Source: a virus
Virus record (IMG/VR): IMGVR_UViG_3300009059_000024
Span: 1 to 44,107 of that record
Strand: one strand, 5' to 3'
DNA: 44,107 bases
Positions 6,005 to 23,168 of the stretch are shown in pieces. The notes beneath the pieces were generated by a model that did not search any database, was not told the DNA's origin, and saw only the letters and a list, made by a program, of their open reading frames with translations. Both the position numbers and the translations under genes were made by a program. Each line of letters starts with the position of its first letter. Position 1 is the first letter of the stretch.

Positions 6005-6634
6005 TCAGTCAATGCTGCCAGCTGCTTTTTGCGCATTGGCCAGCTTGGCCAATTCAGCAGGAGTCAGATCAGGCAGAATTTCCAAGGCAAATTCTTTAGC
6101 CATCTGGCTCTCAACACGAACATGCCCGGTACGACGATCTTTGATCGTGCGGATGCTCAGAAAACGACGAGCTTCCATCAGCTTGTACAAGCAGTATTCG
6201 ACGTGGAAACCGTCATCGGTCACTTCACCGAATGGCACGAACTTACGGACAGTACCCAGGTACTCGTTTGCAACGGTGAGGATTTCACCCGGCAAATCTT
6301 TCTTCTTGGGGTCCAGGTTGGTAATGCGCAGACGAACCAAACGCATCTCAGTGTTATAGAGATGTTGGCGCAGGCTCAGCTTACGAACAGGAGCTGCAAC
6401 GGTTTCGGATGGGGCATCGCCAACATCTTCAAGTGGATTCTTCTCAGCCACTTGTTCACCGCCTTGCTGTTCACCTTCGTCGTTCTCACGCATCTTGTCA
6501 GCAATACGCTGACGCAGAGTATCGACGCCGATGTTATTGGAAAAAGGCACACCCAGCAGGGTTGCACGTTGCTTCAAGACTTCCAGCTCATCAGGAAGGT
6601 CTTGTTCTTGCTGTTGCATTTCTGGCGTATCCAT
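6005..6634 (-). CDS. Conserved late protein (gp55 position)
   Basis: 209 aa, highly charged. The N-terminus carries a Gln/Glu run, then a region (~20-48) resembling a short SAP-like or Rho-N-like helix pair (LKQRATLLGVPFSNNIGVDT), an acidic linker (50-80), and a compact Arg/Lys-rich C-terminal domain. A possible nucleic-acid-binding role is inference only. It lies directly downstream of the capsid gene. Start ATG at 6634 has GAGGA upstream. N4 gp55 occupies the equivalent position. Confidence 0.55.
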   Translation of the reverse strand: MDTPEMQQQEQDLPDELEVLKQRATLLGVPFSNNIGVDTLRQRIADKMRENDEGEQQGGEQVAEKNPLEDVGDAPSETVAAPVRKLSLRQHLYNTEMRLVRLRITNLDPKKKDLPGEILTVANEYLGTVRKFVPFGEVTDDGFHVEYCLYKLMEARRFLSIRTIKDRRTGHVRVESQMAKEFALEILPDLTPAELAKLANAQKAAGSID

Positions 6635-6660
6635 CAGTCTTCCTCGTGCGTTCTTGGAAC

Positions 6661-6681
6661 AAAGGGGGAGTTACCTCCCCC
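6661..6681 (-). terminator. Hairpin after the capsid gene, weak terminator
   Basis: A 7-bp G/C stem (6681-6675 with 6670-6664) is closed by a GTAA (GNRA-type) loop on the minus strand, then TTTGTTCC. The short T tract suggests partial termination or 3'-end protection of the very abundant capsid message. Confidence 0.55.
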
Positions 6682-6694
6682 AATGTGTCACCCC

Positions 6695-7924
6695 TTAGAT
6701 AGGTGCAACGGTTTTGGCCAGAGCGATACGCTCAGGACGTTTGACCAGGATACCGTAGTACCACTTGATCGAACTGAAACCAGTTTCACCGTATGGATCG
6801 TTGCGGTCGGCAGTTTCCTTGCCAGGCATTTTGGTCATGACGGAGAACTTCACGGTTTTACCATCGGTTTGGAAACCGATAGTGGTGAAGCTGTCATCAC
6901 CGATAACCAGCATCGGGAACACGTCGTAGTGCTCAGCACCACCGCTCATCGAAGAACGGAAGCCAGGGTTGTCATCGACTTCAGCACCAGCACCGGCCCA
7001 GTGCAGCATCTCAGGCACTTGGATGATACGGAACTTGTCGATGGAACCGATCTCACCGTTCATCACAGTACCGGCATCGGCGTAGTGCTGAATTTCGATG
7101 AACGCTTTGTTGTCGAAAAGGTCTTTCATGCCTTTCAGCATTGGGACGATCTCGGAACCAACGTACATCACGCGAGTGGCACCAATTACCTTGGTGTCAA
7201 CATTGCGGGAACCAGTGATGATACGGGTCTGCACCGGGCAACGGTTGTCGGTCAGGATTTGATCCAGACGCATCAGGTTTTTGTAGCTGATGATCGAAGC
7301 CGGAATTTCCGGGATACCACCGTTAGCCGGGGTCACTTCACCAGTGATCTCGCTGTTCTGGGTGGCAGCACCAGCAAACAGAACAACACCAGCCGCAGCC
7401 AGCAGGTCTTTTTGTAGTACAGCTTCGGTCAGTTGAACGGCACCGGTCAGCAGCTCACGAGCCAGGTGATCCTTCAGCATGTCATCCGAATCGAAGTCCA
7501 TCGACTCTTGGGTGAACTCGGTGAAGAAACCGAACTTGTGAATCGAGCCTTCACGTTGCAGACGAGTGAAACCAACACGGTTCACACGACCACCGTTCTC
7601 GGTCAGGGTCGGCAGCTTGGAGGTGATAGCACCAACGTCTTTCGAGGAACCATAGAGGTTACCGTTGACGATGGTGACACCGTTGGCGTCGATACCTTGG
7701 TCGTTGATGTTGCGCTCATCCAGCAGAGGCACGTACTCAAAAACCTTGATGCTTTTACCGAAGTGCTTCGGCATGTTGGTTACGCTGGCGAGCGGCATGA
7801 AATACTGCTCTTTGCGCGATTCGATGATCGCTTTCTTCAGCCAGAAGAAAGTATTCATCTGGTCCGAGTTGGCACCATCAATCGAAGACTTTTGCCCGTC
7901 AGCGGGGGCGTTGTAGTTCAGCAT
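6695..7924 (-). CDS. Major capsid protein (N4 gp56-like)
   Basis: 409 aa, close to the ~400 aa of N4 gp56. The sequence is typical of phage major capsid proteins of this group: N-terminal helix, KQEYFMPLA-like extended arm (here [17 protein letters not shown], ~40-56), a central domain rich in Gly/Asp, and a C-terminal region with [13 protein letters not shown] near 330. An HK97 fold is expected from the family. It lies downstream of the scaffold candidate and portal and is followed by a hairpin. Start ATG at 7924 has GAGG upstream. Confidence 0.88.
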
Positions 7925-7935
7925 TTGTTATTACC

Positions 7936-9126
7936 TCAAAGGCGGCCTTGGAAATCTTTTAAGAAGTCATCGTCACTCATCGCAAGCGGATTGATCAATG
8001 GCTTCACAGGACGTGGCGAACTCCGTGTAGGAGCAGCAGCACTAACTTTTTCACCGTTCTTCACTTGTGGTTTTGGGGCCACAGTGCGAGTCGCAACAGG
8101 AGCCGGTTTTGCAGTAGGTGCTTGTTCCTGCTGAACAATATCAGCAAACGCACCAGATGCCACTAGAGCATCACCAACTTCTTTATACGACTGAAGAAAC
8201 GACTGTTGCTGCGGAAGTTGGCCCAGAGTCTTACGACGTTCAATCTCAGTGACGATCCGGTCATAGATACCGGTTTCTCGCTGCACGTTGATCAACGACA
8301 TAACACCAGGTTGCTTCCAAAGTAGCTCCTTGCTGGCCTGATCCCAAGTCGAGTTAATGACGTGAAGTGTTGCTTTACCCGAATCACTGCTGGAGATTTC
8401 ATCCAGAGCATTACGGAAGCTTGCTTCTTCATCACTTACAAGGTGATTGCCTTCTCGGTAAGCTGTATCAGCATTGACATCAATATCCATTGGGTCAATT
8501 TTTGCTTCTTTTACAAGCTTGGCAATTGCAGTCGGGTCTTTCTTATCCAAGTCGATCAGATACGAAAGTTTGCCCTCATCCAACAGCCCATTGTTTTCCA
8601 ACATCAGCAGCACCTTACGGTGCGGTTGGAGGTCTTGCATTTTGCGGGTGTAGTTGGCACCCATCTTCATCAGTTGAATAGCTTCTTCCGGTGTACGGAG
8701 TTCAATCATTTTGCCGTTTGCTTTAAACGGTTTCATGATCTCGTCGTGGAATTGCTTGTAGTCAACTGGCTTGGCTTCAGTCTCTTTACCTTCAGTGCTT
8801 GCTGCTTTTTCCTTTCCAGGTTCGCTGCCAGCTTCAGGTTTAGACTTGTCGCCTTCTTCTTTGCCTTCATCCAGTTGAGCCAAGTTCTCCGGGTCATCCT
8901 CTTCGGATTCCGGCTTACCTGGTTCCTCTTCTTCAGTTTCAGGCGGTTCGGTATTTTCAACCGGCAAAGCAGTATCGGCTGGGGCATCATCAGAAGCAGG
9001 TTCTGTAACCTCTTCAGCCCCAGTAGGCTGGGGAGTTTCCCCAGCCGCAGGGCCAGACAGATTCAGAAAGTCTTCATCAGACATAGCCAGTACGTCTTGA
9101 ACTTCATCATCAGCTGGAGTGCCCAT
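7936..9126 (-). CDS. Scaffold protein candidate (gp57 position)
   Basis: 396 aa. Residues ~20-130 are an acidic, Pro/Glu/Lys-rich disordered region; the middle (~130-320) is helical and charged; the C-terminal tail is Pro/Ala/Lys-rich and ends with a short acidic-hydrophobic motif. Its place between portal and capsid genes and its composition are those of an assembly scaffold, although no homology was proven. The motif LAMSD(E/D)DFL appears at both ends (residues 13-21 and 381-389), which is unusual. The start overlaps the upstream gene's stop (TAATG). Confidence 0.65.
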   Translation of the reverse strand: MGTPADDEVQDVLAMSDEDFLNLSGPAAGETPQPTGAEEVTEPASDDAPADTALPVENTEPPETEEEEPGKPESEEDDPENLAQLDEGKEEGDKSKPEAGSEPGKEKAASTEGKETEAKPVDYKQFHDEIMKPFKANGKMIELRTPEEAIQLMKMGANYTRKMQDLQPHRKVLLMLENNGLLDEGKLSYLIDLDKKDPTAIAKLVKEAKIDPMDIDVNADTAYREGNHLVSDEEASFRNALDEISSSDSGKATLHVINSTWDQASKELLWKQPGVMSLINVQRETGIYDRIVTEIERRKTLGQLPQQQSFLQSYKEVGDALVASGAFADIVQQEQAPTAKPAPVATRTVAPKPQVKNGEKVSAAAPTRSSPRPVKPLINPLAMSDDDFLKDFQGRL

Positions 9127-9461
9127 TACTGGTTACCCTCCTCACGACGGGCTTCTTCCAAAGCCTCTTCCAGAGGAACGAGGTCACGTTCAGCAGTGTT
9201 ACCCATCTGAACCACAACCGAAAGGAAACGGCGCAGGTGACCGGCAGACTGTGCAATTGCCAGCGAGTTCGCTTGGTCAATCGGGGAGAGAGCTGGGTCA
9301 GCAGAAGCTTGTGCATAACGAGCACACTCCTGAACGCAGAACTCCTCAAGCACCAGACGGCGGAAGTCTGGGTTGTTCGCCAGACGCAATGCGGTTTCAC
9401 GACGCTCAATGAGAGTCTTGGAATCTGCCAGTTGTTTTTCCAGAGTATTGACTTCAGACAT
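9126..9461 (-). CDS. Small conserved late protein (gp58 position)
   Basis: 111 aa, entirely polar and helical in appearance: an N-terminal Leu/Lys heptad region (residues 5-25), a Cys-containing middle, and a Glu/Arg-rich end (LEEALEEARREEG). No family recognised. It is sandwiched between portal and scaffold candidate, with stop and start overlapping (TAATG), which implies coupled translation and a role in head assembly. Start ATG at 9461. Confidence 0.6.
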   Translation of the reverse strand: MSEVNTLEKQLADSKTLIERRETALRLANNPDFRRLVLEEFCVQECARYAQASADPALSPIDQANSLAIAQSAGHLRRFLSVVVQMGNTAERDLVPLEEALEEARREEGNQ

Positions 9462-9480
9462 GCTGATTAGTCCCTTGCGG

Positions 9481-11712
9481 TTAATTGATTACAGGTTGTG
9501 GGGCGGAGGGTACACCAGGTTCTACATTACTTGGAAGTCCGCCTTGTTCTTCAAGTGTATCACTAAGTTGGTTGAAGCCAACAGCCGCAGAAATATCAGG
9601 GGCTGATTCGCCTTCTTTACGTGGGGCAGTCAGTGCCTTAGTAATCTGAAGGTCTTGGTTACCCTTGGCTTGGCCTTTTTGTTTTTCCATTTCACGGGCA
9701 TGTTTAGTGCCTGTTTCCTGTTCAACGTAATCCAAATCTTTGATGTCTTTTTCAGCCAAAGTAAGTTTGGCTTTTGCATCGTTGACCATGATTTCAGAAC
9801 GTAGTTTCTCGTTCTCAAGCTCAGCTTTTTCAATGGCCAATTCTTGCAGACGAATCTGCTCTGGGCTTGGTTTAGGTGCCCAACGACGAAGCTTCTCAGC
9901 CAACTCAGGCATACGCTTCAAGTCAGCAATCTCAGCCAGAATCATCATCACAACACTTGGGTCATGGTTCGGGCCGATTGTCTGAAGCATGAATGCCAAG
10001 TCTTTTGCTTTGGCGTCATCAACTTCAGCAGTTGAGATATCGGTCTCAAGATCGAAGTTACCGATCAGGTCTTCCCGTTTTACCTCAATGAACTCTTTGT
10101 TCGTAATGCGGATGATTTCAACTTCAGACAGGAACACGCCGTTCATGGCGATGATCTTGTTACCAATCTCCGTCATGCCTTTTGCAAGACGACGCAGAAT
10201 AGCCATTTCACGTTTAGATGCGGCATCCAGAACACCCCGGATACCTGCCGCCACATCCCCATAAGCTTCCCCGCTGATGCCACCACCAAAGGATTTAACC
10301 CCGGTGAGTGCTTCTGCTTCTTGGTTCTGAAGGTTCAACATCAACAGTCCAGACTGAGGCAGCTCAGGGTACTTGTGCTCAATGACGCCCTGCTGTGGAT
10401 GCACGTTAGGGTTGAACTCGTAGTCTTCGCCATTCTCATAACGACGACGGTTCAAGGCATCCAGCATGCCTTTGGCAATGCCTTGTTGGCTATTTGCCGA
10501 ACGACCAAGAAGGTCAATCATCCCACGGGTAACAGCACCCAGAATTTTCTGGTTGTCTTCCAGCAATTCTGCGTCAGGCTCACCGTAAAGATTCCGCTTA
10601 ACCGGGAGGTATGGAACCAACACGAAAGGAAGTTTGCCGTCCGGGAACGGGTTTTCTTCCATACGAATTGGCACATCACCAATCCAAGTAGCAACGATTG
10701 GGGTCAGAGTGCCGTCACCGTTGATATCCTGAAAACCCCAGTATTCGTAAGCCACAACCTTTTTCCGAAGGGAGTCGCTGAACTGGTAGCTATCTGGTGT
10801 GCTTGTGGAGTGGTCAGGCTGAGCCAATGGGGCATTGCCTTCCCAGTTCACTGCATCCAGGTTTTTGTAACGCTCAGGTTCCTTGAGCAATTCAGCTTTG
10901 TTTGTCTCAAAGGACACGATCACAAACAGAGCTTTACTCAGATCACCGTTACAGGACGGGTCGATGATTACGTTCTGTGGGTCCAGCAGATCGACAACTG
11001 GTTGGTTGATCAAGACTTTTTCAGTCTGGACTTCTTCTTCACCAACCTGAACGGCATAAGTTACTTGCTCAGTTTCCAGGTAAAGATCAATCGCAGCTTT
11101 CACTTCCTTGGGAACAACTTCCTCGTATTCACGAGGATTCTGCCCACGCAGGTCCATGGCAGCTTGGAAGACTTCAATCTGGCTTTCGTCTTGGATCGGC
11201 AGGAACTCGTATGTCGGTGCCATTTCCGTGATTGGAACGGTCACCCGTTTCCAGCCAACACGAGTGATCGAAGTACCTTCGTCAACAGTGGCACGAACAA
11301 AGTTATCGACAAACTGCACCCGGTTCATCTTCGTGCGGAATTGCCAGTTCAAAACCAACTCATTCTGTACAGAAGCAGGACCGTCTTCAAAGGTAACCGG
11401 AGACACTTTGAAGAGTTTGTTGGTTCCCAAGAATGGTTCTGTCAGTGCTGCATAACGCCACTCAGCCTGACGACGAATGAGTTTGGGCTGAACACTGGAA
11501 CGACCGCTCGCCTTCTTTGGTTTGGCAGAGCCACGCACAGCCATGAGATCAGACCAACGTGTGATGTTGGACATCTGGCTTTGGTGAGCTGGACGTGCGT
11601 TTTCCAAATCCTGTTTGAGAGAGCGAATATCCGGCTCGATCTCCCAATCAGTCAAACGCGAAATGCCACGAGCATCCGGCTGGTTCTTGTCTTGTTCCAT
11701 GTCAGGTCTCAT
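9481..11712 (-). CDS. Portal protein (N4 gp59-like)
   Basis: 743 aa, close to N4 gp59 (about 760). The portal forms the dodecameric channel at the capsid vertex through which DNA is packaged and ejected. The sequence has the layout of large podovirus portals: basic N-terminus, beta-rich wing, a conserved [17 protein letters not shown]-like stretch near 350, a glycine-rich segment ([11 protein letters not shown], ~480) and a long helical crown/barrel at the C-terminus with KAxLxxAEKD-type helices. The start could be ATG 11712, overlapping the Rz stop as ATGA, or ATG 11700. Confidence 0.85.
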
Positions 11713-12218
11713 TCATTAAGTAATTTACGGTCAGCAAGTAGTTGGTTACCCAACTCAATCAATTGCCGTTCACGGAGTCTAAGAGTGTCCCGGAGTTCTG
11801 CAACCAGTGATCGGCCTTCTTCAAGAGATTGGTCGAGTCGGGCTGCATGGCTTGCAAGGTTGTCTCGCTCAGCTTCGGTGCCTTGGGCTTGACGTTTGTA
11901 GGCAGATTCTCTACCGGCGCTGAGCAACAACCGCTTAGCAAAACCAGCCCGCTGCTCAGAAAGAGCAAGGTCATAATCGTTTTTCGCTTTAGCAAGCTCA
12001 TCGTTAATCCTTGTAGTCGTTTCAATGTGAACCAATTGGTCTTTGGCAATTTGGTCTTTCAGCTTATCAATCTGCTCTTTATGGGCAATTTTTTCTTTGT
12101 CCCATTCTCGCTGAATCTCTGCTTTTCCAGAGGAGATACCTTCAGAGTACACCCCATAGAAGATTGCCGAGACAAGAGCAACAAAAGCCAGTGCAATTAC
12201 CCAATTGACTATTTTCAC
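11709..12218 (-). CDS. Inner-membrane spanin (Rz-like)
   Basis: 169 aa. A single N-terminal transmembrane helix (residues ~5-25) is followed by a long periplasmic coiled coil rich in Glu, Lys, Gln and Leu, the classical i-spanin layout. It would pair with the outer-membrane lipoprotein encoded inside the same DNA (see nested gene) to fuse the inner and outer membranes in the last lysis step. It follows the endolysin gene with a 4-base overlap and precedes the portal gene with a 4-base overlap. Confidence 0.85.
11759..12001 (-). CDS. Outer-membrane spanin lipoprotein (Rz1-like), nested inside Rz
   Basis: 80 aa in a different frame entirely within the Rz gene. The lipoprotein signal is clear: basic start, hydrophobic core, then lipobox LLSG-C with the modified Cys at residue 25. 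The mature part is short and Pro/Lys-rich, as in Rz1 proteins. The start at 12001 is preferred because AAGGA sits 7 bases upstream, while the next upstream in-frame ATG (12049) would bury the signal peptide behind 16 extra residues. Nested Rz/Rz1 pairs are known from lambda. Confidence 0.85.
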   Translation of the reverse strand: MSLLKRKTIMTLLFLSSGLVLLSGCCSAPVENLPTNVKPKAPKLSETTLQAMQPDSTNLLKKADHWLQNSGTLLDSVNGN

Positions 12219-12823
12219 TTAACTTCGTCCTTGCAGTGGGACAGGGGTATGTTGCCAATTCGATTGTCCACCCAACCTGGAGTGAATCCTGATAGGTGAC
12301 TCAAGCTCATGTAGTGCACTGCCTGCTGGGCATCCATGAGTTTTAAAACCAACTCACAGGCACGAACTTTACCCCGAACTTTTTGTAGACCTTTATAGGA
12401 GGTAATCGTACCAGGTCCGACTTTTCCATCAACAACAATCGTTGGGTAATCCTTACCCCCTCGATTGAGTGCGTTCAACGCTGTCTGGAACCAACGAGAA
12501 GAACGCCCTGTGCCAGCATTCACACCGGCATCTACTAATTTGTGACCAACAGCAGGGGACACCTCAATCACTTCTATGTACTTGGGTCGCTCAATATAAT
12601 CCGCGACATAGATGGTCTTTGCTTGCTCAAGCGTCAGATCCCGCATTGGCCCGGTGTATCCATTGGCTTTGGCAGTTGCAACTGTGATGCCGTGGTTTGT
12701 TTCGCCACCGGGGTCTTTTGGATTATTGACGTAACCCCCTTCCATAGCAAAAACGGCAGACAGGACTACCCCAATTGCCGACACCATGCCTGCTCGTTCT
12801 TTCCAACTACTCGTCATTTTCAT
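12215..12823 (-). CDS. SAR endolysin, N-acetylmuramidase (N4 gp61-like)
   Basis: 202 aa. Residues ~27-110 match the GH108 muramidase domain: the EGGYVNNPKDPGGETNHGIT motif (catalytic Glu at 28) is diagnostic. The C-terminal ~80 residues (KVGPGTI..., DAQQAVHY) match the peptidoglycan-binding domain normally paired with it. Residues ~11-26 form a weakly hydrophobic Ala/Gly/Ser-rich N-terminal helix, a signal-anchor-release (SAR) type export signal as known for N4 gp61. Enzyme release from the membrane would follow collapse of membrane potential by the holin candidate just upstream. Confidence 0.88.
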   Translation of the reverse strand: MKMTSSWKERAGMVSAIGVVLSAVFAMEGGYVNNPKDPGGETNHGITVATAKANGYTGPMRDLTLEQAKTIYVADYIERPKYIEVIEVSPAVGHKLVDAGVNAGTGRSSRWFQTALNALNRGGKDYPTIVVDGKVGPGTITSYKGLQKVRGKVRACELVLKLMDAQQAVHYMSLSHLSGFTPGWVDNRIGNIPLSHCKDEVK

Positions 12824-13445: not shown

Positions 13446-14876
13446 TTACTCGATTGGTTCTGGTGAGAGGAGTTCTCTGTGTTGCAAACACAAAGCCAAA
13501 GCCTCAAGCACTTCCCCTTGCTCAAAACCATAAACCTCAAACCCATCTGGATTTTTAGTAAAGGCACCGTGCATGTCGGTGTCCTCAACAACTTGAAGTG
13601 GAACCAACGAAGTGACCAGACGGTGGATCACATAACGGGCTTTCACCAAGTCGTAGCCAGCCACTGCACAGAAGACTGCACCCTTCAAAGCAAGCCCAAT
13701 GTCGTGAGCAGAGGGTGTTGTGTACTTCGGATCAAGGTAGCTGTCTTTTGGGAAAGGTGTGCCTTGTGTCCAGCCTGGTGGACGCCAGTCATTAGGAACA
13801 CCTGGTGAGTCTGGATTCTCCACCATCCACCCATGCAACCAGTCAAAAAACCGAGTATTGACGGCAACAATTTTAGCCATCAACTCCGGTGGGATTACGT
13901 TGTTGGTTAGTGTTGCCTCATACCAGGTGCGCCCCATCGAGTCGAATGCACGGTACTGCCAACCATCCCATGCTGGGTTACCGTCCGGACCATCCCAAAC
14001 CCAAGTGTCGATCTCCCCGTTTTGCTCACAATCCCACAGAGCTTGCAGGTAAATGTGCATCCATGGTCCAAAAATCTCATCAGGACTTCGGGCACGAAAT
14101 TGCTCTTGCGCCTCCAACATGAAATCAATCATGCCTTCCAGTTTCTCCATGTCATTGGCATGAATCCATGGGGTACCGCCCTGGTAACCAGCAACAATGG
14201 GACCACGGTACGGGAGCACAGAAAGACGATTACGAGGGCCATTCAGTTGGAGACCAAACGGTAAAGCACCAATGTAGCGGACAGGTTTCCGTGTCGCATT
14301 AGTAACTTCTACTGTCCCAATTTTCCAAGTATGGGCTGTCGGGTTTTTATCGGTCAGAATCACTTTACGCAGTGAACCAGCAGAAGCAGTAACGGGAGTT
14401 CGTCCAGCTAAATAGGCAATGCTCAGTGTCTGTTCTTGGTCGTTTTCATCACCGTGAACACCTTCGGCTCCATTGAACTGGAAGGCCAGAATTGCCCCGG
14501 AAGCAGGTGCCGTTGGTGGAGTGCCAACGTTTTCTTGGACCGTGTGTAGACTAAACTGGACCCAAGACCACCCACGCTCTTTCACCTGGTTCTGTTGCGG
14601 ACACGGTGCTGCCCACAACCAACCATCTGAGTCTTTGACAACAAACAGCATATCCGAGGTACTTGTGTACATCAGCTTAGGCGGTTTGGTGATGTTGAAT
14701 GCTGGGTTGATTTGATCGTAAGTGATACCAAATCCGGCTTGAGCATTCGGAATAGTGAAACTCTGACACAACAACTGTCCACCAATGGCAGTTGCCTTAT
14801 AACCCACGGTGATGTCTACCCCGTCATTGAAGTCGAAGTAGGTATTACCGGGCAACCAAACGTTGTAGTTGGCCAT
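13446..14876 (-). CDS. Tail or appendage structural protein
   Basis: 476 aa, rich in Trp, Pro and Gly. No catalytic motif was recognised. The N-terminal ~200 residues look beta-rich; the C-terminal half is helical with many Trp and ends in a segment VLEALALCLQHREL. It lies between lysis genes and the SGNH-containing spike in the region where N4 encodes sheath and appendage proteins (gp64-gp66 area), so a tail role is likely. Start ATG at 14876 has AGGATAA upstream. A 10-bp hairpin at 14896-14918 precedes it. Confidence 0.6.
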   Translation of the reverse strand: MANYNVWLPGNTYFDFNDGVDITVGYKATAIGGQLLCQSFTIPNAQAGFGITYDQINPAFNITKPPKLMYTSTSDMLFVVKDSDGWLWAAPCPQQNQVKERGWSWVQFSLHTVQENVGTPPTAPASGAILAFQFNGAEGVHGDENDQEQTLSIAYLAGRTPVTASAGSLRKVILTDKNPTAHTWKIGTVEVTNATRKPVRYIGALPFGLQLNGPRNRLSVLPYRGPIVAGYQGGTPWIHANDMEKLEGMIDFMLEAQEQFRARSPDEIFGPWMHIYLQALWDCEQNGEIDTWVWDGPDGNPAWDGWQYRAFDSMGRTWYEATLTNNVIPPELMAKIVAVNTRFFDWLHGWMVENPDSPGVPNDWRPPGWTQGTPFPKDSYLDPKYTTPSAHDIGLALKGAVFCAVAGYDLVKARYVIHRLVTSLVPLQVVEDTDMHGAFTKNPDGFEVYGFEQGEVLEALALCLQHRELLSPEPIE

Positions 14877-14924: not shown

Positions 14925-17900
14925 TTACAGTGGCAGAGCGCTCGTAACCTTACGCAGACTGTTGTTCTTCAAAATGATACTCCCCACAACACCAGAGGTG
15001 GAGCAATCAAACGAGAACTGAAACTTGAAGTCAGCATACCGAATGGTTTCACCAGATTGGTAGGGTGGAACAGTAATGGCCGGTGCTCTCATATGGATGG
15101 TGCGATTGCCTACAGGCAAACGGATTTTGTCCATATCAGATGGTGGCCAGAAGAACAGATGGTTACCAAAACTCTGTCGAACAGAGCCAAAGGTTTGGGC
15201 TGGTATGTTGGCAAAAGTTGACAGTGCCAAGTTGCACGACAGCATTTGCCCAACCAGATTCACCATCTTAATGTCGGCTTCAGCTAGTAAAGTGTTGCCA
15301 GCAGAGAAGACCGTGTTAGCCCGTGGATCACCTTGGTCAGGCGAGTTCCAGCCCCAGTTATCCCAAGGTCCATGTTGGTCTCGTGGTACAGAGGTCACCA
15401 CCACAAACGACTCGTTTTTGTTACCAGTGGCTGGGATATTGAGGTCAATTTTAATTGCCGGAACGCCCTCATCCGTCACAATAGAAACAGAAACAGTACC
15501 TGGGGCAAAGGTAGCATCGCCCATGTACTCAAGCACTTTGGGGTATTCACCAGCAAGGTCACCCCACGTGTAGTTCATGAAGTTTGAGTAGTTGCCTCCA
15601 ACACCAATCCCCATAACTTGGTTTTCGTCGTTGGTGGATTTCCACAGGTTCCAACAGTCCGGCAACACACCATGCTGATAACCAGCATGGTTACCTCCAG
15701 ATAACAACGCATTACCCAGTCCAGTTGCCCAACCAATAGAACTCAGGTTGAACGAAACAGGAATAGTGGCTGTGGCTTTATAAGCCGTAAAAGACAAACT
15801 GCTGTTTGGAATGATGTTTGGTCCAAGAGTCAAAGAACCAAGTTGAGTACGGCTAGGGCGGGCTGGAACTCCTGCCTCGACCATAACTTCAGCCAGTTTT
15901 CTGCCCATCACGTATGCCCCAATTGGTCCGGGGTGCAGACCGTCATGACAAGCAACATGTCCTGGAAACTCAGGGCTGTAATTACCCAAAGTGTAAGTGC
16001 CCAGTGGATTTACGTCATCCGACACCATGCCAAAAGGGTCAATCCCATTCGGACCAAGAAGGTCTTCTGTTGCATCCACAAGCCAGATATTCGGGTGTGT
16101 ACCTGATGCTACCCACGAACGCAGACCTTCGTTGACGTCTTCAAGACGTGCCCGAATAGTGTCCATTTCGCTGATGCTATAGCCCTTCAGCAAATCCCGA
16201 GTACGTGGGCAGATCGCCATGAGAAATACCCATTTGCCTCTGCTCGCTAAGTCAGTAGCAGCCCGTTTGATGTTGAACAAAACTTCAGGAGCAGGAATGT
16301 TCCCCGAAAGGTCGTTAGTACCCCCCATCATGACAACAACATCAAAACGACTGATGTTGTTCAAGGCAGCGTACATTGGGCCTTGCCAAAGCACACCATC
16401 GCCCAGTGTGTCATCACTTTCCTCCCACCAATTGACAACCCGTGTACCTGCAATTGCAAAGTTCAAACCATGCTTTTGTCCCTGAACGTCTGTGGTAATG
16501 CCTGGTTCAAAGGACAAACGACCATCCAAGATATGGTCTGCATGTGTCCAGTAACCACACACACCAGATCCCCAGTTTTCATACATACCAGTGTTCCCTT
16601 TAGGGGGAATGTATGCGGTGTTGTAGTGTGTGATTGAGTCACCAACCATGGCCAGGCGACGGCCTGGAAAAGGTACAGCAGCATATTCTGGAAGAGTGCT
16701 ACCGTCGTCTTCCCAATCACCAGATTGAGTGCCATCTGCATCGCCTGGGCTTTGCTGAAACTGATAGAACTGACCAACACCCACATTCTGCGGAACACTG
16801 TCAGGACCAATCAGTAAAATCGTTTCGTATACCTGCTCATCCTCACCACTAATAGCCATAGACACTGTTTGGTTAATGGTGGACTTCATGTCCACAGCAA
16901 ACTGTGAATTGGCTGTGTAGTCGATATAGACAGGGTTGTTTTCAAAAGCAACACCGTAGCGAATAGGCAATCCACTACCTACTTCAGCAGACTCATTCTG
17001 CATAGTGAACGCAACATACCCATCTTGAGAACGTTCAGCCACATAGCGTGAAGTAGGGGGCACCGCATTCCAATTGGTGGCCGGATCGTCGATGTCATCA
17101 CGACCATAGGCATAGCCATAGGTCAATGGGAAATTATTGTAAGGCCCGTCTGCTCCTGCCTGGAAAATGCGAGTGTTGTTCGACTCTTGATCACAGGTTT
17201 GAATCCAGACTTCCATCATGCGATCAAAAGCATTCCGCCAATCAGGGTTGTTTGGCTCCATCTCCATACCCAAGGAGAAAGCATCAAGGAACCAGTGAAT
17301 AGCATCAGCCGCCGTGGACACCTCGTTATCTGCCAGCTTACGCCACATTGGCCAAGCCTCGTACAGATCACCGTAAGGCACCATCACGTCTACAACAGTG
17401 GTGCAGTAGTTCACACCACAGACGGTATTCGCGTTTGTAGTGAGGACAATTTTACCTGGAGCACCGTCGTTATGTTGGCCAGCTGGAATAGCAGGTTGAC
17501 CAAAGGAACCACCTTTCTGGGTGCCAAAGATCTTGTTGCCACCGGCGTCGATGTAATACTCGACATCGTACTGAACCCCAGTTTCCAAATCAGAAAACAC
17601 GTTCAACCAAACAAACGTAGATTCCGGGCTGACCACCTGATAAACAATGTCAGGTGCGGGGTTCAGTTGACCAACTCCAGCCGTGAAGGTCACAGAAGAT
17701 TGGGTGTCACGACCGTAGATATAGCCACTGAGTGCCAAGTCTCCAGAAGACTGCAATGGGCCACGGACATTGAAAGCTGCCCCACCATTACAAATCCATG
17801 AGTGATGCCAGCCTTGACCAGTTTCATCTGTGGGACGTTCCCCACGGAAAAAGAACTGGCAAGCAGCATCAAAAAGAAAGTGGCAGAAGTCTGCTTTAGC

Positions 17901-18068
17901 ACTGTCACCTGTGGCAATGGCAGCACGAGCCATACCACGAAGCATCAACGAGACACCTTCAGAAGACGCAGTGCCCAAAGGGGTGTAACCCCCAAGAGCA
18001 CCTTGGTCCGGCATCATGTTGTTCAGTACCAAGCCTTGCTCTGTAATTAGAGGAGGCAAAGTAGCCAT
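14925..18068 (-). CDS. Tail spike with SGNH esterase/deacetylase domain
   Basis: 1047 aa. Residues 1-465 are a Trp/Asp-rich structural region, probably virion attachment. Residues ~468-730 form an SGNH/GDSL hydrolase: block I VGDSIT (Ser478), block III GGTND (582-586), and block V DGLHP with Asp709 and His712 of the catalytic triad. The rest (~740-1047) looks like beta-sandwich, carbohydrate-binding type. The N4-like phage G7C carries a comparable tailspike that removes acetyl groups from surface polysaccharide, so the same role is inferred. Start ATG at 18068. A second SGNH domain occurs in the protein ending 1.3 kb upstream in this operon. Confidence 0.8.
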   Translation of the reverse strand: MATLPPLITEQGLVLNNMMPDQGALGGYTPLGTASSEGVSLMLRGMARAAIATGDSAKADFCHFLFDAACQFFFRGERPTDETGQGWHHSWICNGGAAFNVRGPLQSSGDLALSGYIYGRDTQSSVTFTAGVGQLNPAPDIVYQVVSPESTFVWLNVFSDLETGVQYDVEYYIDAGGNKIFGTQKGGSFGQPAIPAGQHNDGAPGKIVLTTNANTVCGVNYCTTVVDVMVPYGDLYEAWPMWRKLADNEVSTAADAIHWFLDAFSLGMEMEPNNPDWRNAFDRMMEVWIQTCDQESNNTRIFQAGADGPYNNFPLTYGYAYGRDDIDDPATNWNAVPPTSRYVAERSQDGYVAFTMQNESAEVGSGLPIRYGVAFENNPVYIDYTANSQFAVDMKSTINQTVSMAISGEDEQVYETILLIGPDSVPQNVGVGQFYQFQQSPGDADGTQSGDWEDDGSTLPEYAAVPFPGRRLAMVGDSITHYNTAYIPPKGNTGMYENWGSGVCGYWTHADHILDGRLSFEPGITTDVQGQKHGLNFAIAGTRVVNWWEESDDTLGDGVLWQGPMYAALNNISRFDVVVMMGGTNDLSGNIPAPEVLFNIKRAATDLASRGKWVFLMAICPRTRDLLKGYSISEMDTIRARLEDVNEGLRSWVASGTHPNIWLVDATEDLLGPNGIDPFGMVSDDVNPLGTYTLGNYSPEFPGHVACHDGLHPGPIGAYVMGRKLAEVMVEAGVPARPSRTQLGSLTLGPNIIPNSSLSFTAYKATATIPVSFNLSSIGWATGLGNALLSGGNHAGYQHGVLPDCWNLWKSTNDENQVMGIGVGGNYSNFMNYTWGDLAGEYPKVLEYMGDATFAPGTVSVSIVTDEGVPAIKIDLNIPATGNKNESFVVVTSVPRDQHGPWDNWGWNSPDQGDPRANTVFSAGNTLLAEADIKMVNLVGQMLSCNLALSTFANIPAQTFGSVRQSFGNHLFFWPPSDMDKIRLPVGNRTIHMRAPAITVPPYQSGETIRYADFKFQFSFDCSTSGVVGSIILKNNSLRKVTSALPL

Positions 18069-18082
18069 TTGTTATGTTTCCT

Positions 18083-19405
18083 TTAGTTGGTGTGACCCAC
18101 ACAGAGCCAGTAGAAAGTATTGTTGGCCCCGTCCAAGACGTAACGCCAAACGGTGCCTACCGTACCTGCGGACGATACAGGACCGCCCTTGACCGTAATA
18201 GTCCCGTAACCAACTAAACCAGGGTTCCATGTAATCGACGAGGCAGCACCGTCAATAAACACAACTAACTCAGCACCTGGGTTGAAGTAGTCAGGCATCT
18301 TTATGGTCAGTGCCCCACCACCAGTTGTACGCACATAGACGTTCTGCATTCCGGCACCGATATTGTAGGTGCCTCCCGCTTGAGGAGAGGGAATAGCAGT
18401 ATTCGGAAAGAGTGCAGTTGCTAGCGACGTCAGACCACTAAAAGTTTTGTTACCTCCAACACTTTGGTTGGTTGTGAGATCCACCCCACCGCCACCACCA
18501 GCAGCTGGCGTTTGCCAGTTTGTAGCAAAGTCCGTTCCGCTGGTTTTAGTCAGAACTTGTCCTGTAGTGCCACCGGCAGGAACACCTGTACCCGCAGCAC
18601 CAGTTGCACCTTTTAAGGAAGCAACCACAGAACCCCAAGCACCAGCAGTTTTAGGCCCGTAATAGTCGCCATTGGTTCGCAAATAGAAGTCACCATTTAC
18701 GCCTGTGCCACCATCAGGAACACCCGCACCAGTAAACCATTTGGCACCTGCTGCACCTGGACTGCCGGGTGCTCCCTCAGTACCAGGAGTACCCTCCAAA
18801 TCAGCCAAAGCAACGATATTGATCCAAGTAGGATCACCCACCAGCCGCCACTGCACATGCGTGGCACTGGCCTGTATTTCCACAGATTTACCGTCTTCAC
18901 CGGCAGGAGCAACCAACTCAATCCATTTAGTTGGGTCGCTCAAAGGAGCAACTGTTGAGGCGTAGGGCACTGTGCTGTTCAGCACCCACATGGAAACAAC
19001 ACCAAGGCTGCCCATAGAAAAAACATAATCACCAGGATCGTAAGTTGCAGCCGCCCAGTTGCCTTTGTTAGTCAGTCCAGTACCGGATTCCCCTTGCTCA
19101 CCCTGCTCACCTTGGATGCCTTGCTCACCTTTCAGCGAAGCAAGGGAAACCAGATCAATCCAACTTGCGTCACCAACATAACGCCATTGAATGTGAGTGA
19201 CGCCAGCTTGAAGCTCAACTTCACGCCCATCCTCCCCATCAGCACCCGGCGTACCGCCAGAGCTGTTTGCTTGAATCAAAGCAACAAGTGCAGTTTTATT
19301 AGCCCGCACAGTTTGAAATGCTCCACCAACTCCAGGGATGATGCCAATCAACTCCAAGGCATCATCGTAAGTGGAAGCAACCGGGTATGTATTTAGTTTT
19401 GGCAT
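18083..19405 (-). CDS. Collagen-like tail fibre protein
   Basis: 440 aa. Two copies of a module (VEIQ/VELQ ... THxQWR.VGD.(S/T)WI(D/N)(L/I)V.LA.L.G) at about residues 64-93 and 171-200 are each followed by Gly-X-Y collagen-type repeats (GEQGIQGEQGEQGESG; GTPGTEGAPGSPGAAG). A third short Gly-rich stretch and a beta-rich C-terminal knob (~300-440) follow. Collagen repeats in phage fibres form trimeric rods. Start ATG at 19405 lies 3 bases from the stop of the cellulase/esterase gene, so the genes are translationally linked. Confidence 0.75.
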   Translation of the reverse strand: MPKLNTYPVASTYDDALELIGIIPGVGGAFQTVRANKTALVALIQANSSGGTPGADGEDGREVELQAGVTHIQWRYVGDASWIDLVSLASLKGEQGIQGEQGEQGESGTGLTNKGNWAAATYDPGDYVFSMGSLGVVSMWVLNSTVPYASTVAPLSDPTKWIELVAPAGEDGKSVEIQASATHVQWRLVGDPTWINIVALADLEGTPGTEGAPGSPGAAGAKWFTGAGVPDGGTGVNGDFYLRTNGDYYGPKTAGAWGSVVASLKGATGAAGTGVPAGGTTGQVLTKTSGTDFATNWQTPAAGGGGGVDLTTNQSVGGNKTFSGLTSLATALFPNTAIPSPQAGGTYNIGAGMQNVYVRTTGGGALTIKMPDYFNPGAELVVFIDGAASSITWNPGLVGYGTITVKGGPVSSAGTVGTVWRYVLDGANNTFYWLCVGHTN

Positions 19406-19407
19406 GA

Positions 19408-22400
19408 TCAGCTCTCAAGTTCGTTTGAAGAAGAATCCAGTAAAGGATTCTCTGAACTGTCCAATAAGACGTTCGGGCCTGGACCCGGATTAGGTACAGG
19501 AGTTGGGTCGATGTTGTTGAATGGGAATGACCCAGTGATAACGGTCAACTGGGAGAAGTCGAGCGTGATTTCCACGTCGTTTGCTTCAATGTCATCAGAC
19601 ATTGTAAACAGTTGCAGTGCCAAGCGGTTAGCGCCACTCGGTGCAGTGATCTCAATGAATAGAGTACCTTCCTCAACGCTATCACCTTGTGGCCCCATCA
19701 CAACATTCAAGCCATCTGTGTAGTTGTTCCACGAAGTATCCGTGAACATGGCCATCATTCCTAACTGCCAAGCAGCATTCTCAACACCAACACCACCAAG
19801 CATGCCACCTGTATTCCAACGAACCTTGCACGCCAGTGAGTGTTTCTGCCCGGGGGTTACAGCAAATACAGCAATGCGGCTGACCACAGACGTGTTACCT
19901 GTAACACCGATTGGTCGAATAATTCGTTGCCAATTGCCTGCTTCCGCAGGTAGCAATTGTCCAGTAAAACCAGTACCCAAGGTAAAGTTGTTGGATACAC
20001 CACCAGAACCAGCAAACAAGGGGTTCGGCACCAAGTTACTACCACCAACTGCTGTTGGTAGTGGCAGTGTTCCATCTGTTGGAATGTCACCAAATGCCCC
20101 GCTATCAACGGCGTAACGTCCAAGTACAGTGTAACCGTAGTTACTAAAGTGCAGCCCATCCGGGTTCATGTAAGCCGGCTCTGCACGGTAAGAGCCAGAT
20201 ACCCGTAGTGCTTCAAACGCATCCACGAGGGGGATACCAGTGTCCCGGTGATACTGGCGAATCATGTCGTTCCAAGAGGCAACGTTTGCGTCCTGCCCGC
20301 TCGTATCATTGCGTGGTGGAATAGTCCACAGAATTGGGTAAATTTTATTGGCTACAAGGATGTCGCAGATCTCTTTGATCTGATTAACCCCACCAGTTCC
20401 TGAGTAGATGCTGTTAGTGCCAGAGGCAACCACACACGCTTTTGGGCGAGGACTCATTGCCAAAATTTGTGGCAGCTGTAGCTCCAATGCTTCTTGCACG
20501 GTACTGCCAGAAACAGCCTTGGTTCCCCGATAACGAAGACCGTGGTTACCGTAAAAGCAAGCCTTCACCAACCAACCGTTATTTAGGTAAACACCACCCT
20601 CAGTCAACGAATCACCTACAGCAGTTATGCCGTAAGCAGTGGGAGGCAAGTCAATAACAATAGGGTCCACTTCTGGCTCTACAGGCACATCATCAGATGC
20701 AACTCCAGTAAGGGTAGCCGTCACCAACCCACCAACACCGAAGGCAACATTAAGTGTTGCTGGGAAACTGCCCTCAGCCGTTGGAGAGAAGACAACCGTC
20801 AACGTCATCACCCCATTGGCAGGCACGTTACCAATGTCAGGCGACACAGTATAACCAGCACCAACAACCGAGGAGGTCACCGTTATTGCTTCATCGGTGC
20901 TGTTCTGTACTTCGATTGTCCGGTAATTCTCAGTGCCAGAAGCCACGGTTCCAAAAGGCACTGTGTTTAGCGAAAGAGAAATCTCAGCTACAGGAATCGG
21001 AGTAATGAAAGGTTCCAGATATTCCAGCTTGAATGCCTGAGCCTCATGCCATTGACCAGCAGGCTGTTGGCCGACCAAGCCATCGGGGTCACCACCAGGG
21101 TTCCAGGCCCAGTAAGCAAAACTGATGTCATGCTCATCACAATAATCAGCCAGAGTGTCCATCCACTCTTCGTCAAGTGCCAAGTTTTCAGCATCGTAGC
21201 CTGCACCCTGCCCTGTAATAGGGTCACCACCAACACGGAAATAGGAACCAAATTCACCAATCCAAACAGGTGCGATACCCTCTTCAGCAAGGTAGCCCCA
21301 CTGACGACGCCACACTTCTGCCATGTTTTGCGGGTAAGGCAGGCCAGCATACCCAGCACCGACACGGCCTTCAGGGTCAAACCACGGTTGCATCACCACA
21401 CCGTCAAGGTAAGTGCCGTATTCGTGTGGAGAGTAGACAACCTTATTTGGGATGTTGAGTGTGACTAGAGCTGATCCAGCAGAATCCAGCTTACCGCTCC
21501 ACCAAGTGCCCCAGTTGTATAGCCCCATCTGGCTTTCAGTATCACCTTCGTGACCTACCGGAGTGTGGTCCACGTTGCCAGTGACACCCTCGCAGATGAT
21601 CAACACATCAGGGTTTACAGCGTGTACCGCTTTACCTGCACGCTCGAAATAACCAAGTACACCTGTCAAAGGATCACGATCCCACGTGCAGACGTGTGGT
21701 TCATTGATCATGTCAAAGCCACAGACCACAGGGCGATTCTTGTAGCGGTTTGCCAAGAATACGTGTGCAGCAATGGCCTGAGCCTCAGAACGAGGTTCCC
21801 GCTTCTGCCCAGCAGTTGCACCAACATCATCGGGATGGTTAGTGGTATACCACTTGCCGTTAGTGGCCAAGACGTTGCTGTCATCTGGGGCCAAGGTGTG
21901 CATGTCCAACACAATACGCAGACCAAGTGCCTCACACCAACCAACGAAAATGTCCATGATTTCCATGGTCGTCTTGACGTTTTGTGGGTCTTCACCCGCC
22001 GTAGCATTCAAAAACTCAGGGTTCATCTGAGGATTGATATACGTGCTGTTCCAGTAACCACTGCGGGTTTCTGGTTTGTAGCCGGGCCAAGTGCAGTCTT
22101 GGGAAAACAGAAGACGAATAGAGTTAAAGCCCAGTCGCTTTATCTCATCCAACATCCCCTCACGAAGAACTCCATTAACGACCTTGGTACGGAAAGGGCG
22201 AGTCCATGCCCCACCGGGAACGCCGGTTTGCTCAAACCCATACCAATTGATGGAACGTAGGCGAACAACCTCACCTGCTCCCTTCTGGTCTTTGAGCTTA
22301 CCACCTACCGCAGTTAGGTAAGTAAGATCGCCTAACTCAGGTTCTGGATCAGGTGGCGGCACTTCCTCACCAACACCGTAGCCAAGCAAAGGCACGTTGT

Positions 22401-22518
22401 GAGGACTGCTTGGTGCATTTGAGGTAAAGGACAACTGCCCATTACGCACACCAGCAGCAGTTGGTTTGAATAGGATCTTGAGTTGGTGTGAACCAAAAGG
22501 AGGAATAGTAATACTCAT
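19408..22518 (-). CDS. Tail protein with GH5 cellulase and SGNH esterase domains
   Basis: 1036 aa. Residues 1-50 are the second half of an ASH/choice-of-anchor-type Ig domain. Residues ~65-505 are a glycoside hydrolase family 5 (cellulase) domain: SIRL near Arg135, acid/base Glu273 in DMINEPH, HEY at 365-367, nucleophile Glu422 in VWIGEFG, and AYWAWNPGG near 468. A second Ig-type domain spans ~512-607. An SGNH esterase follows: GDSLTEGG (Ser637), SGTNS (699-703), DGLHFS (Asp787, His790). The C-terminus is jelly-roll-like and ends with a short Leu-Asp-Ser repeat. It likely degrades an acetylated beta-glucan capsule or cellulose on the host. The start overlaps the upstream stop as ATGA. Confidence 0.85.
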   Translation of the reverse strand: MSITIPPFGSHQLKILFKPTAAGVRNGQLSFTSNAPSSPHNVPLLGYGVGEEVPPPDPEPELGDLTYLTAVGGKLKDQKGAGEVVRLRSINWYGFEQTGVPGGAWTRPFRTKVVNGVLREGMLDEIKRLGFNSIRLLFSQDCTWPGYKPETRSGYWNSTYINPQMNPEFLNATAGEDPQNVKTTMEIMDIFVGWCEALGLRIVLDMHTLAPDDSNVLATNGKWYTTNHPDDVGATAGQKREPRSEAQAIAAHVFLANRYKNRPVVCGFDMINEPHVCTWDRDPLTGVLGYFERAGKAVHAVNPDVLIICEGVTGNVDHTPVGHEGDTESQMGLYNWGTWWSGKLDSAGSALVTLNIPNKVVYSPHEYGTYLDGVVMQPWFDPEGRVGAGYAGLPYPQNMAEVWRRQWGYLAEEGIAPVWIGEFGSYFRVGGDPITGQGAGYDAENLALDEEWMDTLADYCDEHDISFAYWAWNPGGDPDGLVGQQPAGQWHEAQAFKLEYLEPFITPIPVAEISLSLNTVPFGTVASGTENYRTIEVQNSTDEAITVTSSVVGAGYTVSPDIGNVPANGVMTLTVVFSPTAEGSFPATLNVAFGVGGLVTATLTGVASDDVPVEPEVDPIVIDLPPTAYGITAVGDSLTEGGVYLNNGWLVKACFYGNHGLRYRGTKAVSGSTVQEALELQLPQILAMSPRPKACVVASGTNSIYSGTGGVNQIKEICDILVANKIYPILWTIPPRNDTSGQDANVASWNDMIRQYHRDTGIPLVDAFEALRVSGSYRAEPAYMNPDGLHFSNYGYTVLGRYAVDSGAFGDIPTDGTLPLPTAVGGSNLVPNPLFAGSGGVSNNFTLGTGFTGQLLPAEAGNWQRIIRPIGVTGNTSVVSRIAVFAVTPGQKHSLACKVRWNTGGMLGGVGVENAAWQLGMMAMFTDTSWNNYTDGLNVVMGPQGDSVEEGTLFIEITAPSGANRLALQLFTMSDDIEANDVEITLDFSQLTVITGSFPFNNIDPTPVPNPGPGPNVLLDSSENPLLDSSSNELES

Positions 22519-23168
22519 GGCACGATCTCAAAGTCACCAGTGATGGCGATGTTGTCGATAATCAGGTCTTCGTTGCCTGCGTTTGTGATCGTGTACAGGA
22601 GCAGTTGCGACTCACCATCCACGTCTACACCATCCTCAAACTCAATTGAAGTGTTGGGCAAACTTACCGAAGGACCGTCGCTGATAATGGCCGGCTGAAC
22701 AGATCGTTGTAAGAACCCCCACAGGTTTTCCAACATGGCAGTCACTGAGCCAACGTGATCCCATATACCTGTGCCCAGTAGACGGAACGTGTATCGCCCG
22801 CCTTGACCACAGTTGACGACCAGGTTGCCAACAAGCAAACCGAAAGTGCTTGGCACGAACTTGACCAAGAGCGTAACGGTACGGCCTGGGTAGATGATTT
22901 CCGGAGCTGCGTTCACCAACTCGTAGTCAGCAGAGGGGACCAGGACACTCTGAACATGTAAAGGCTGAAAGCCTGTGTTTTCCAACACAAGTTCCATTGT
23001 CTTAGACAAACCCAGAACCAAACCACCGAAGGCCAGTGTGTTGCCCTTCAGTGAAGTCAGTTCGTAAGGGGGCTTGCCCTCAACCCAGAGTGGGATCTCT
23101 CGACTGGAGTGGTTGGTGAGTGGATTATCCCGAAGGTAATCCACTAGAGGCACAAATGGTTTCGTCAT
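22515..23168 (-). CDS. Tail protein with Ig-like (ASH-type) domains, truncated at the C-terminus
   Basis: 217 aa. A complete ASH/HYDIN-type immunoglobulin domain lies at about residues 45-140 (FGGLVLG..., LENTGF..., FVPSTFGLLVGNLVV). A second such domain starts near residue 170 (TSIEFEDG..., ITNAGNEDLIIDNIAITGDF) but stops after the FEIVP strand. The missing strands are found at the very start of the next gene, whose ATG overlaps this gene's TGA. This is either a split protein, a frameshift fusion or a broken gene. An adaptor between tail body and enzymatic spike is inferred. Confidence 0.7.
   Translation of the reverse strand: MTKPFVPLVDYLRDNPLTNHSSREIPLWVEGKPPYELTSLKGNTLAFGGLVLGLSKTMELVLENTGFQPLHVQSVLVPSADYELVNAAPEIIYPGRTVTLLVKFVPSTFGLLVGNLVVNCGQGGRYTFRLLGTGIWDHVGSVTAMLENLWGFLQRSVQPAIISDGPSVSLPNTSIEFEDGVDVDGESQLLLYTITNAGNEDLIIDNIAITGDFEIVP

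Follow-up and report, generated by a model that had tools for sequence, protein, structure and literature searches.

A phage tail-module protein joining predicted GH5 endoglucanase and SGNH hydrolase domains, with an immunoglobulin domain divided between two genes

The window analyzed here, a whole IMG/VR record of 44,107 bp, encodes a tail-module protein in which a GH5 domain and an SGNH hydrolase domain (SGNH-a) are joined on one chain, and which starts in the middle of an immunoglobulin (Ig) domain begun in the preceding gene. We consider it fairly probable that this protein degrades exopolysaccharide as a virion-attached enzyme of a Schitoviridae phage with a probable Pseudomonas host, that acetylated cellulose serves as the first receptor, and that the enzyme is anchored through the split Ig domain. 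The GH5 domain would act as an endoglucanase on beta-1,4-glucan (bacterial cellulose), and SGNH-a would remove acyl groups, most likely O-acetyl, that would otherwise block the glucanase. The particle would thereby use and clear acetylated cellulose as its first receptor. The first 50 residues of the protein would complete the Ig fold begun by the C terminus of the upstream adaptor and so hold the enzyme on the tail.

Results

Virus, backbone, and probable host

The terminase and portal proteins of the window are 78-83% and 68-71% identical, respectively, to those of the Pseudomonas putida phage Zuri and the P. syringae phage Arace01, and the PHROGs to which its head, tape-measure, and RNA polymerase proteins belong are consistent with Schitoviridae. 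By these sequence comparisons, the virus is assigned to the Schitoviridae and is related to Pseudomonas phages. As the longest related contigs measure 73-76 kb, the 44-kb window probably represents only part of a ~74-kb genome. The host is probably a Pseudomonas. A sequence-only reading of this DNA had already proposed such a link, and it held up well: the backbone is nearest to phages of P. putida and P. syringae, and the tail module is nearest to the P. fluorescens SBW25 phage Skulduggery. As a side observation, the Arace01 record (L013) contains an SGNH domain (E 3e-8) at 65759-67336 in a gene annotated as adenylosuccinate synthetase among lysis genes; this gene is probably misannotated.

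Layout of the GH5-SGNH protein

The open reading frame, its Pfam matches, and its homologues define a protein of 1036 aa from the ATG at 19408..22518. The sequence-only reading had given this frame without a strand; we confirmed it and placed it on the minus strand, as are the other window features described below. From the N terminus, the protein consists of a half-Ig, the GH5 domain, an Ig domain, the SGNH domain, a CBM-like domain, and a C-terminal repeat tail. The half-Ig comprises the N-terminal 50 aa (22369..22518) and corresponds to the second half of an Ig (ASH/choice-of-anchor D) domain, matching Cep192_D4 at positions 63-111 only. The GH5 domain (~aa 67-507; 20998..22320) was delimited by Pfam, PDB, conservation, and a structural model and is followed by a complete Ig (ASH/choice-of-anchor D) linker (~aa 510-610; 20689..20991) recognized by Pfam and in the AlphaFold2 (AF2) model. 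SGNH-a (~aa 625-800; 20119..20646) was identified by Pfam, conservation, and a profile search. The beta-rich C-terminal domain (~aa 821-995; 19534..20058), which we infer to be CBM-like, is kept in the related contig L015 and in Achromobacter phage JWF. The tail (19408..19533) contains short repeats (..NVLLDSSENPLLDSSSNELES) and is also present in an 80-aa open reading frame of the related contig L040. Repeats of the form NPLLDSS/ELES occur at the C termini of both the GH5-SGNH protein (19408-22518) and the L040 product (2425-2667), that is, they persist without enzyme cargo. Synteny would place the GH5-SGNH protein in the virion.

GH5 domain

The GH5 domain matched PF00150 over residues 105-475 (E 3.1e-31), scoring 109 bits where the cut-off is 23.5. 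Its catalytic motifs are INEPH, with Glu273 as the acid/base (21700-21702), and IGEFG, with Glu422 as the nucleophile (21253-21255); both residues had been numbered correctly from the sequence alone. All eight GH5 signature residues (R135, H207, N272, E273, H365, Y367, E422, and W470) are invariant in 23/23 viral sequences. The best PDB relative is the Acidothermus endocellulase E1 (1ece; E 5e-38 over 84-504). The earlier description of a tail-module protein joining GH5 and SGNH domains is supported, as is a GH5 of the endo-beta-1,4-glucanase type. Structure prediction had been proposed as a check on both domains, and for GH5 it agreed: the AF2 model of this region matched E1 (1ece/1vrx) with a TM of 0.83-0.84 by target and an rmsd of 3.6-4.0, in a model built with GH5 homologues as its alignment, so that the barrel test is not independent of sequence. 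Model confidence was fair to good for the middle Ig domain and for most of the GH5 region. The domain is thus predicted by the model to be a (beta/alpha)8 barrel and, from its sequence matches, to be an E1-type endo-beta-1,4-glucanase of clan GH-A.

SGNH domains

SGNH-a matched PF13472 over residues 633-797 (E 4.1e-17). The triad reported earlier was correctly numbered, with Ser637 (20608-20610) in a GDSL motif and Asp787 (20158-20160) and His790 (20149-20151) in a DGLH motif. Blocks I (GDS; S637), II (G671), III (GxN; G700/N702), and V (DxxH; D787/H790) are intact, and their residues are conserved in every relative extending that far. The sequence profile also matched solved SGNH enzymes (4ppy; 3.5e-8). 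Here the structural check was less informative: most of the SGNH part was modeled with a pLDDT of <50, because the alignment was shallow. Among phages with a known host, the best homologue of SGNH-a is in Achromobacter phage JWF. SGNH-fold enzymes are active on many kinds of acyl ester, so that sequence does not identify the substrate.

Nonsynonymous divergence was low (dN of 0.17-0.21 for GH5 and 0.23-0.30 for SGNH-a) while synonymous sites were near saturation; therefore, both domains are under purifying selection.

A second SGNH protein (SGNH-b), which the sequence-only reading had not mentioned, is encoded two genes downstream of the GH5-SGNH gene. It has no detectable similarity to SGNH-a, and a recent duplication was ruled out, as the sequence similarity between the two is not significant.

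Relatives and rarity of the fusion

A 1145-aa homologue, 60% identical over 1038 aa, is encoded in L015 (G002; 73,259 bp) and is laid out as half-Ig, extra Ig, GH5, Ig, SGNH, and a C-terminal domain like that of the window. The matching fusion and synteny in this independent 73-kb contig rule out an assembly artifact or chimera. In L004/L005, which are probably one virus seen twice, the fusion runs into the SGNH domain and then meets the contig end, and L050 contains the last 254 residues of another GH5-SGNH-type protein.

Among 50,697 annotated phage records, 43 match the GH5-SGNH protein, mostly on the GH5 side and the remainder on the SGNH side; both parts were found together in none (0/50,697). 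By these counts, the GH5-SGNH fusion appears to be rare, while GH5 tail-region cellulases as such do not. The earlier view that the architecture is uncommon is upheld for the fusion, but both GH5 tail cellulases and SGNH esterase tailspikes were already known. In a profile scan of genome contigs, with patterns that reach close relatives only, no bacterial source of the whole fusion was detected. The literature searched, which was mostly open-access, contained neither a cellulase-esterase phage protein nor a split-Ig dock on a phage. Within the reach of these searches, what is new is the enzyme pair on one chain together with the split-Ig attachment; each enzyme type is known on phage tails.

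In the wider set of GH5 tail proteins, not all of which are split, the enzyme sets comprise GH5-SGNH, tandem GH5 (L053), GH5-GH18 (L037), GH5-GH18-PL7 (L016), and none (L040). L016 (G003; 75,900 bp) encodes a 1540-aa tail-module protein (6456-11078) in which three enzyme domains are combined, GH5, GH18, and a PL7 alginate lyase; a second GH5 gene (11093-12742) and a relative of SGNH-b come after it. In L037, a 930-aa tail-module protein (7416-10208) fuses GH5 with GH18. The tandem GH5-GH5 tail protein of L053 (1029-4184 of an 81,675-bp contig) has a half-Ig at its start, and the genes downstream of it encode relatives of SGNH-b (39%) and of the 476-aa protein p476 (47%).

An Ig domain divided between two genes

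That the protein starts mid-Ig, with the domain begun in the preceding gene, was absent from the sequence-only reading. By profile matches, the 217-aa adaptor (22515..23168, minus strand) carries one complete Ig domain and, at its C terminus, the first half of a split one (~22518-22676). The adaptor stop and the GH5-SGNH start overlap by 4 nt (ATGA). In the window, an in-frame stop lies 3 codons ahead of the GH5-SGNH ATG and the interval contains no alternative start, so the gene cannot begin farther upstream.

Taken apart, the adaptor C terminus and the enzyme N terminus match complementary parts of Ig profiles; when joined in silico, they cover the length of an Ig profile. The clearest case is L053, whose halves match PF22544 at 1-52 and 57-94 apart and at 1-93/100 when joined (43.2 bits), and the joined halves of L040 cover 3-99/100 (40.9 bits). 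The match in the window is weaker (ASH 12-95/98; 28.1 bits), and its first half alone scores 12.9 bits to DUF1573. The split also lies inside the Ig domain in L004/L005, L015, and L040. A sequencing error at the junction was ruled out, since the ATGA split is kept in these contigs, with adaptors 35-59% identical.

What follows the first half varies among relatives. L040 (G001; 74,181 bp) has an "empty" plug (1742-2667) in which the 80-aa open reading frame consists of a half-Ig and the C-terminal tail. GH5 and SGNH-a are absent from this frame and from elsewhere in the record, and the adaptor, half-Ig plug, fiber, SGNH-b, and p476 are retained. On the different backbone of L053, an unrelated gene of 137 aa is interposed between the Ig halves, and the enzyme gene is served by a ribosome site (AGGAGA) of its own. 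A single chain carries the adaptor region, the Ig domains, and GH5 in Skulduggery and in the Erwinia phage phiEaP8.

The simplest reading of these sequences is a gene fission within the Ig domain, after which the halves would still assemble, by non-covalent joining, and act as a plug for exchangeable cargo. It is quite unlikely that ribosomes instead shift by -1 at the ATGA overlap and produce a continuous adaptor-enzyme chain with an undivided Ig domain. The single-chain forms of phiEaP8 and Skulduggery would agree with such a product, as would the nearly identical junction DNA of the window and L005. However, no slippery heptamer was seen at the junction, and the enzyme frame is closed by a stop before the ATG at a distance that varies (3 codons in the window and L005, 5 in L015, and 12 in L040). 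The codons preceding this stop are not conserved in L015, and in L053 the halves are set apart by the 137-aa gene, with the AGGAGA site on the enzyme gene. A programmed frameshift is therefore disfavored.

Returning to gene fission, the 80-aa empty plug of L040 and the unrelated gene between the halves in L053 suggest that the split Ig is a dock on which enzyme cargo can be exchanged. A broader proposal, which we hold tentatively and at slightly short of even confidence, is that the cargo (GH5-SGNH, tandem GH5, or nothing) sits on a natural split-Ig dock and, together with SGNH-b and p476, forms a mobile acetylated-cellulose module that has moved between unrelated podovirus lineages.

A tail module shared with Skulduggery

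Three genes downstream of the GH5-SGNH gene, all on the minus strand, complete the module: a 440-aa collagen-like tail fiber (18083..19405; shared with Skulduggery SKUL_19), the 1047-aa SGNH-b tail protein with the second SGNH domain (14925..18068; 46% to SKUL_20), and p476, a tail protein of the phrog_2871 family (13446..14876; 53% to SKUL_21). Of 15 window proteins searched against the first 31 kb of Skulduggery, a stretch that contains its terminase, portal, and capsid genes, only 4 matched, namely, GH5 (43%), the fiber (30%), SGNH-b (46%, nearly whole length), and p476 (53%). Capsid, portal, and terminase similarity was not detectable in this region. Zuri and Arace01 show the reverse, having the backbone in common with the window and lacking the tail module.

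Skulduggery was isolated on P. fluorescens SBW25, which makes acetylated cellulose via the wss operon (PMC10302187). The wssABCDEFGHI genes are also present in P. syringae DC3000 (PMC6559019).

The AF2 model of p476 has low confidence (59.6) and contains a beta-sandwich and an alpha/alpha part; Foldseek matches of this low-confidence model to CBM11 and alpha/alpha glycosidases are leads only. A relationship of p476 to the GH48 protein gp094 of Erwinia phage S6 was considered and rejected, as no BLAST similarity was found and the PDB profile search gave no significant match. Scanning viral contigs with the SGNH-b alignment gave no match; relatives were located via p476 and record searches. The N-terminal part of SGNH-b and p476 match two parts of a single 926-aa tail protein of Vibrio phage BX-1 (L056; 5887-8667). 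From these matches, SGNH-b/p476 of the window looks like a divided form of a BX-1-type protein with an SGNH domain inserted. Adsorption of BX-1 depends on the cellulose-related gene bcsE (PMC11792527), and the resemblance is a circumstantial link of SGNH-b/p476 to cellulose.

Discussion

Cellulose is well supported as the target of the GH5-SGNH protein, and acetylated cellulose is a plausible substrate. Carboxymethyl cellulose is degraded by gp095, the S6 homologue of the GH5 domain, and S6 uses cellulose as its first receptor and needs it for infection (PMC9544554). Across 20 phage records surveyed for SGNH domains, these occurred in Pseudomonas-linked phages and in 0/6 GH5 phages of Erwinia, Klebsiella, and Serratia, a pattern that is not statistically significant, with essentially one independent known-host GH5 phage (Skulduggery) on the Pseudomonas side. 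This pattern, together with the finding that the best known-host homologue of SGNH-a comes from a phage of Achromobacter, a genus with cellulose acetylation genes, fits acetylated cellulose as the joint substrate and is suggestive only.

The two enzymes may instead serve two receptors in sequence, with GH5 cutting cellulose and SGNH-a deacetylating LPS O-antigen or another exopolysaccharide, such as acetylated alginate. We regard this as unlikely, with a real chance nonetheless. The SGNH-type esterase tailspikes of Schitoviridae (Moo19, B2, and G7C) act on LPS O-antigen (PMC11654681; PMC13123978), L016 combines GH5, GH18, and PL7 alginate lyase, enzymes for different polymers, in one tail protein, and the window itself encodes a second SGNH protein. 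In addition, Klebsiella prophages commonly encode receptor-binding proteins of the SGNH type (PMC13123978). Against separate targets, SGNH-a lies on the cellulase chain only one Ig domain away and is kept in every fusion-bearing relative, and the module is held in common with a phage of an acetylated-cellulose producer.

It is very unlikely that the enzymes are mainly binding modules or aids to the escape of progeny from biofilm rather than a means of entry, with catalysis secondary. The GH5 cargo is dispensable, as L040 lacks both GH5 and SGNH-a, but the catalytic residues are all invariant, and cellulose is required by S6 for infection (PMC9544554). It is highly improbable that the target is a beta-glucan of plant or other environmental origin or a non-cellulose bacterial beta-glucan. 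GH5 is a broad family; however, the closest solved relatives are endocellulases, and the phage homologue acts on CMC and has bacterial cellulose as its receptor (PMC9544554).

Phages that need bacterial cellulose as a receptor are a recent discovery, and acetylated cellulose is a principal polymer in the biofilms of P. fluorescens and P. syringae. In the mostly open-access literature searched, no account was found of how cellulose-receptor phages handle acetylated cellulose. With deacylation and chain cutting joined in one protein, this question becomes directly testable with existing SBW25, wss mutants, and Skulduggery, an existing phage that has most of the GH5-SGNH tail module. If real in the virion, the split-Ig junction would be a natural plug for swapping phage-tail enzymes as well as a tool to attach enzymes to particles.

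Compared with known systems, the window protein is closest in plan to S6 gp095 and its homologues in phiEaP8, Klebsiella phage SJM3, and Serratia phage Parlo, in which Ig (choice-of-anchor D) domains precede a GH5 that shares its catalytic residues with the window protein. S6 and phiEaP8 are likewise Schitoviridae with the GH5 gene a few genes after the terminase. The differences are that phiEaP8 has a single chain where the window has a split Ig, that an SGNH domain is found nowhere in the S6, SJM3, and Parlo records, and that S6 pairs GH5 with a GH48 protein whereas the window pairs it with SGNH. In Skulduggery, SKUL_18 to SKUL_21 are homologues of the GH5, collagen-like fiber, SGNH-b, and 476-aa proteins (30-53% aa), and their order is that of the window, but the phage belongs to another virus lineage, and its GH5 is unfused to SGNH and shares one chain with the adaptor and Ig.

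Schitoviridae tailspikes with esterase activity have been reported for Moo19, B2, and G7C (PMC11654681). Like G7C gp63.1, Moo19 gp82, and B2 gp48/gp49, the window protein would be an esterase on a Schitoviridae tail with a surface-glycan target, the activity in the window being predicted; those tailspikes target LPS O-antigen, and a glycoside hydrolase on the same chain is not reported for them. PJWF_00038 of phage JWF contains SGNH-a and the window-type C-terminal domain (31% over 364 aa), but is a stand-alone 430-aa protein without GH5. WssI-type cellulose acetylation genes occur in Achromobacter (PMC10302187).

For the attachment, the division of one Ig domain between adaptor and enzyme has parallels outside phages. 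In SpyTag/SpyCatcher, which are engineered split-Ig pairs, and in donor-strand exchange of pili, an Ig fold is completed by a segment of another chain. In contrast to these systems, in which one strand is supplied, about half of the fold would be supplied by the partner in the window, where the joining of the halves is a prediction.
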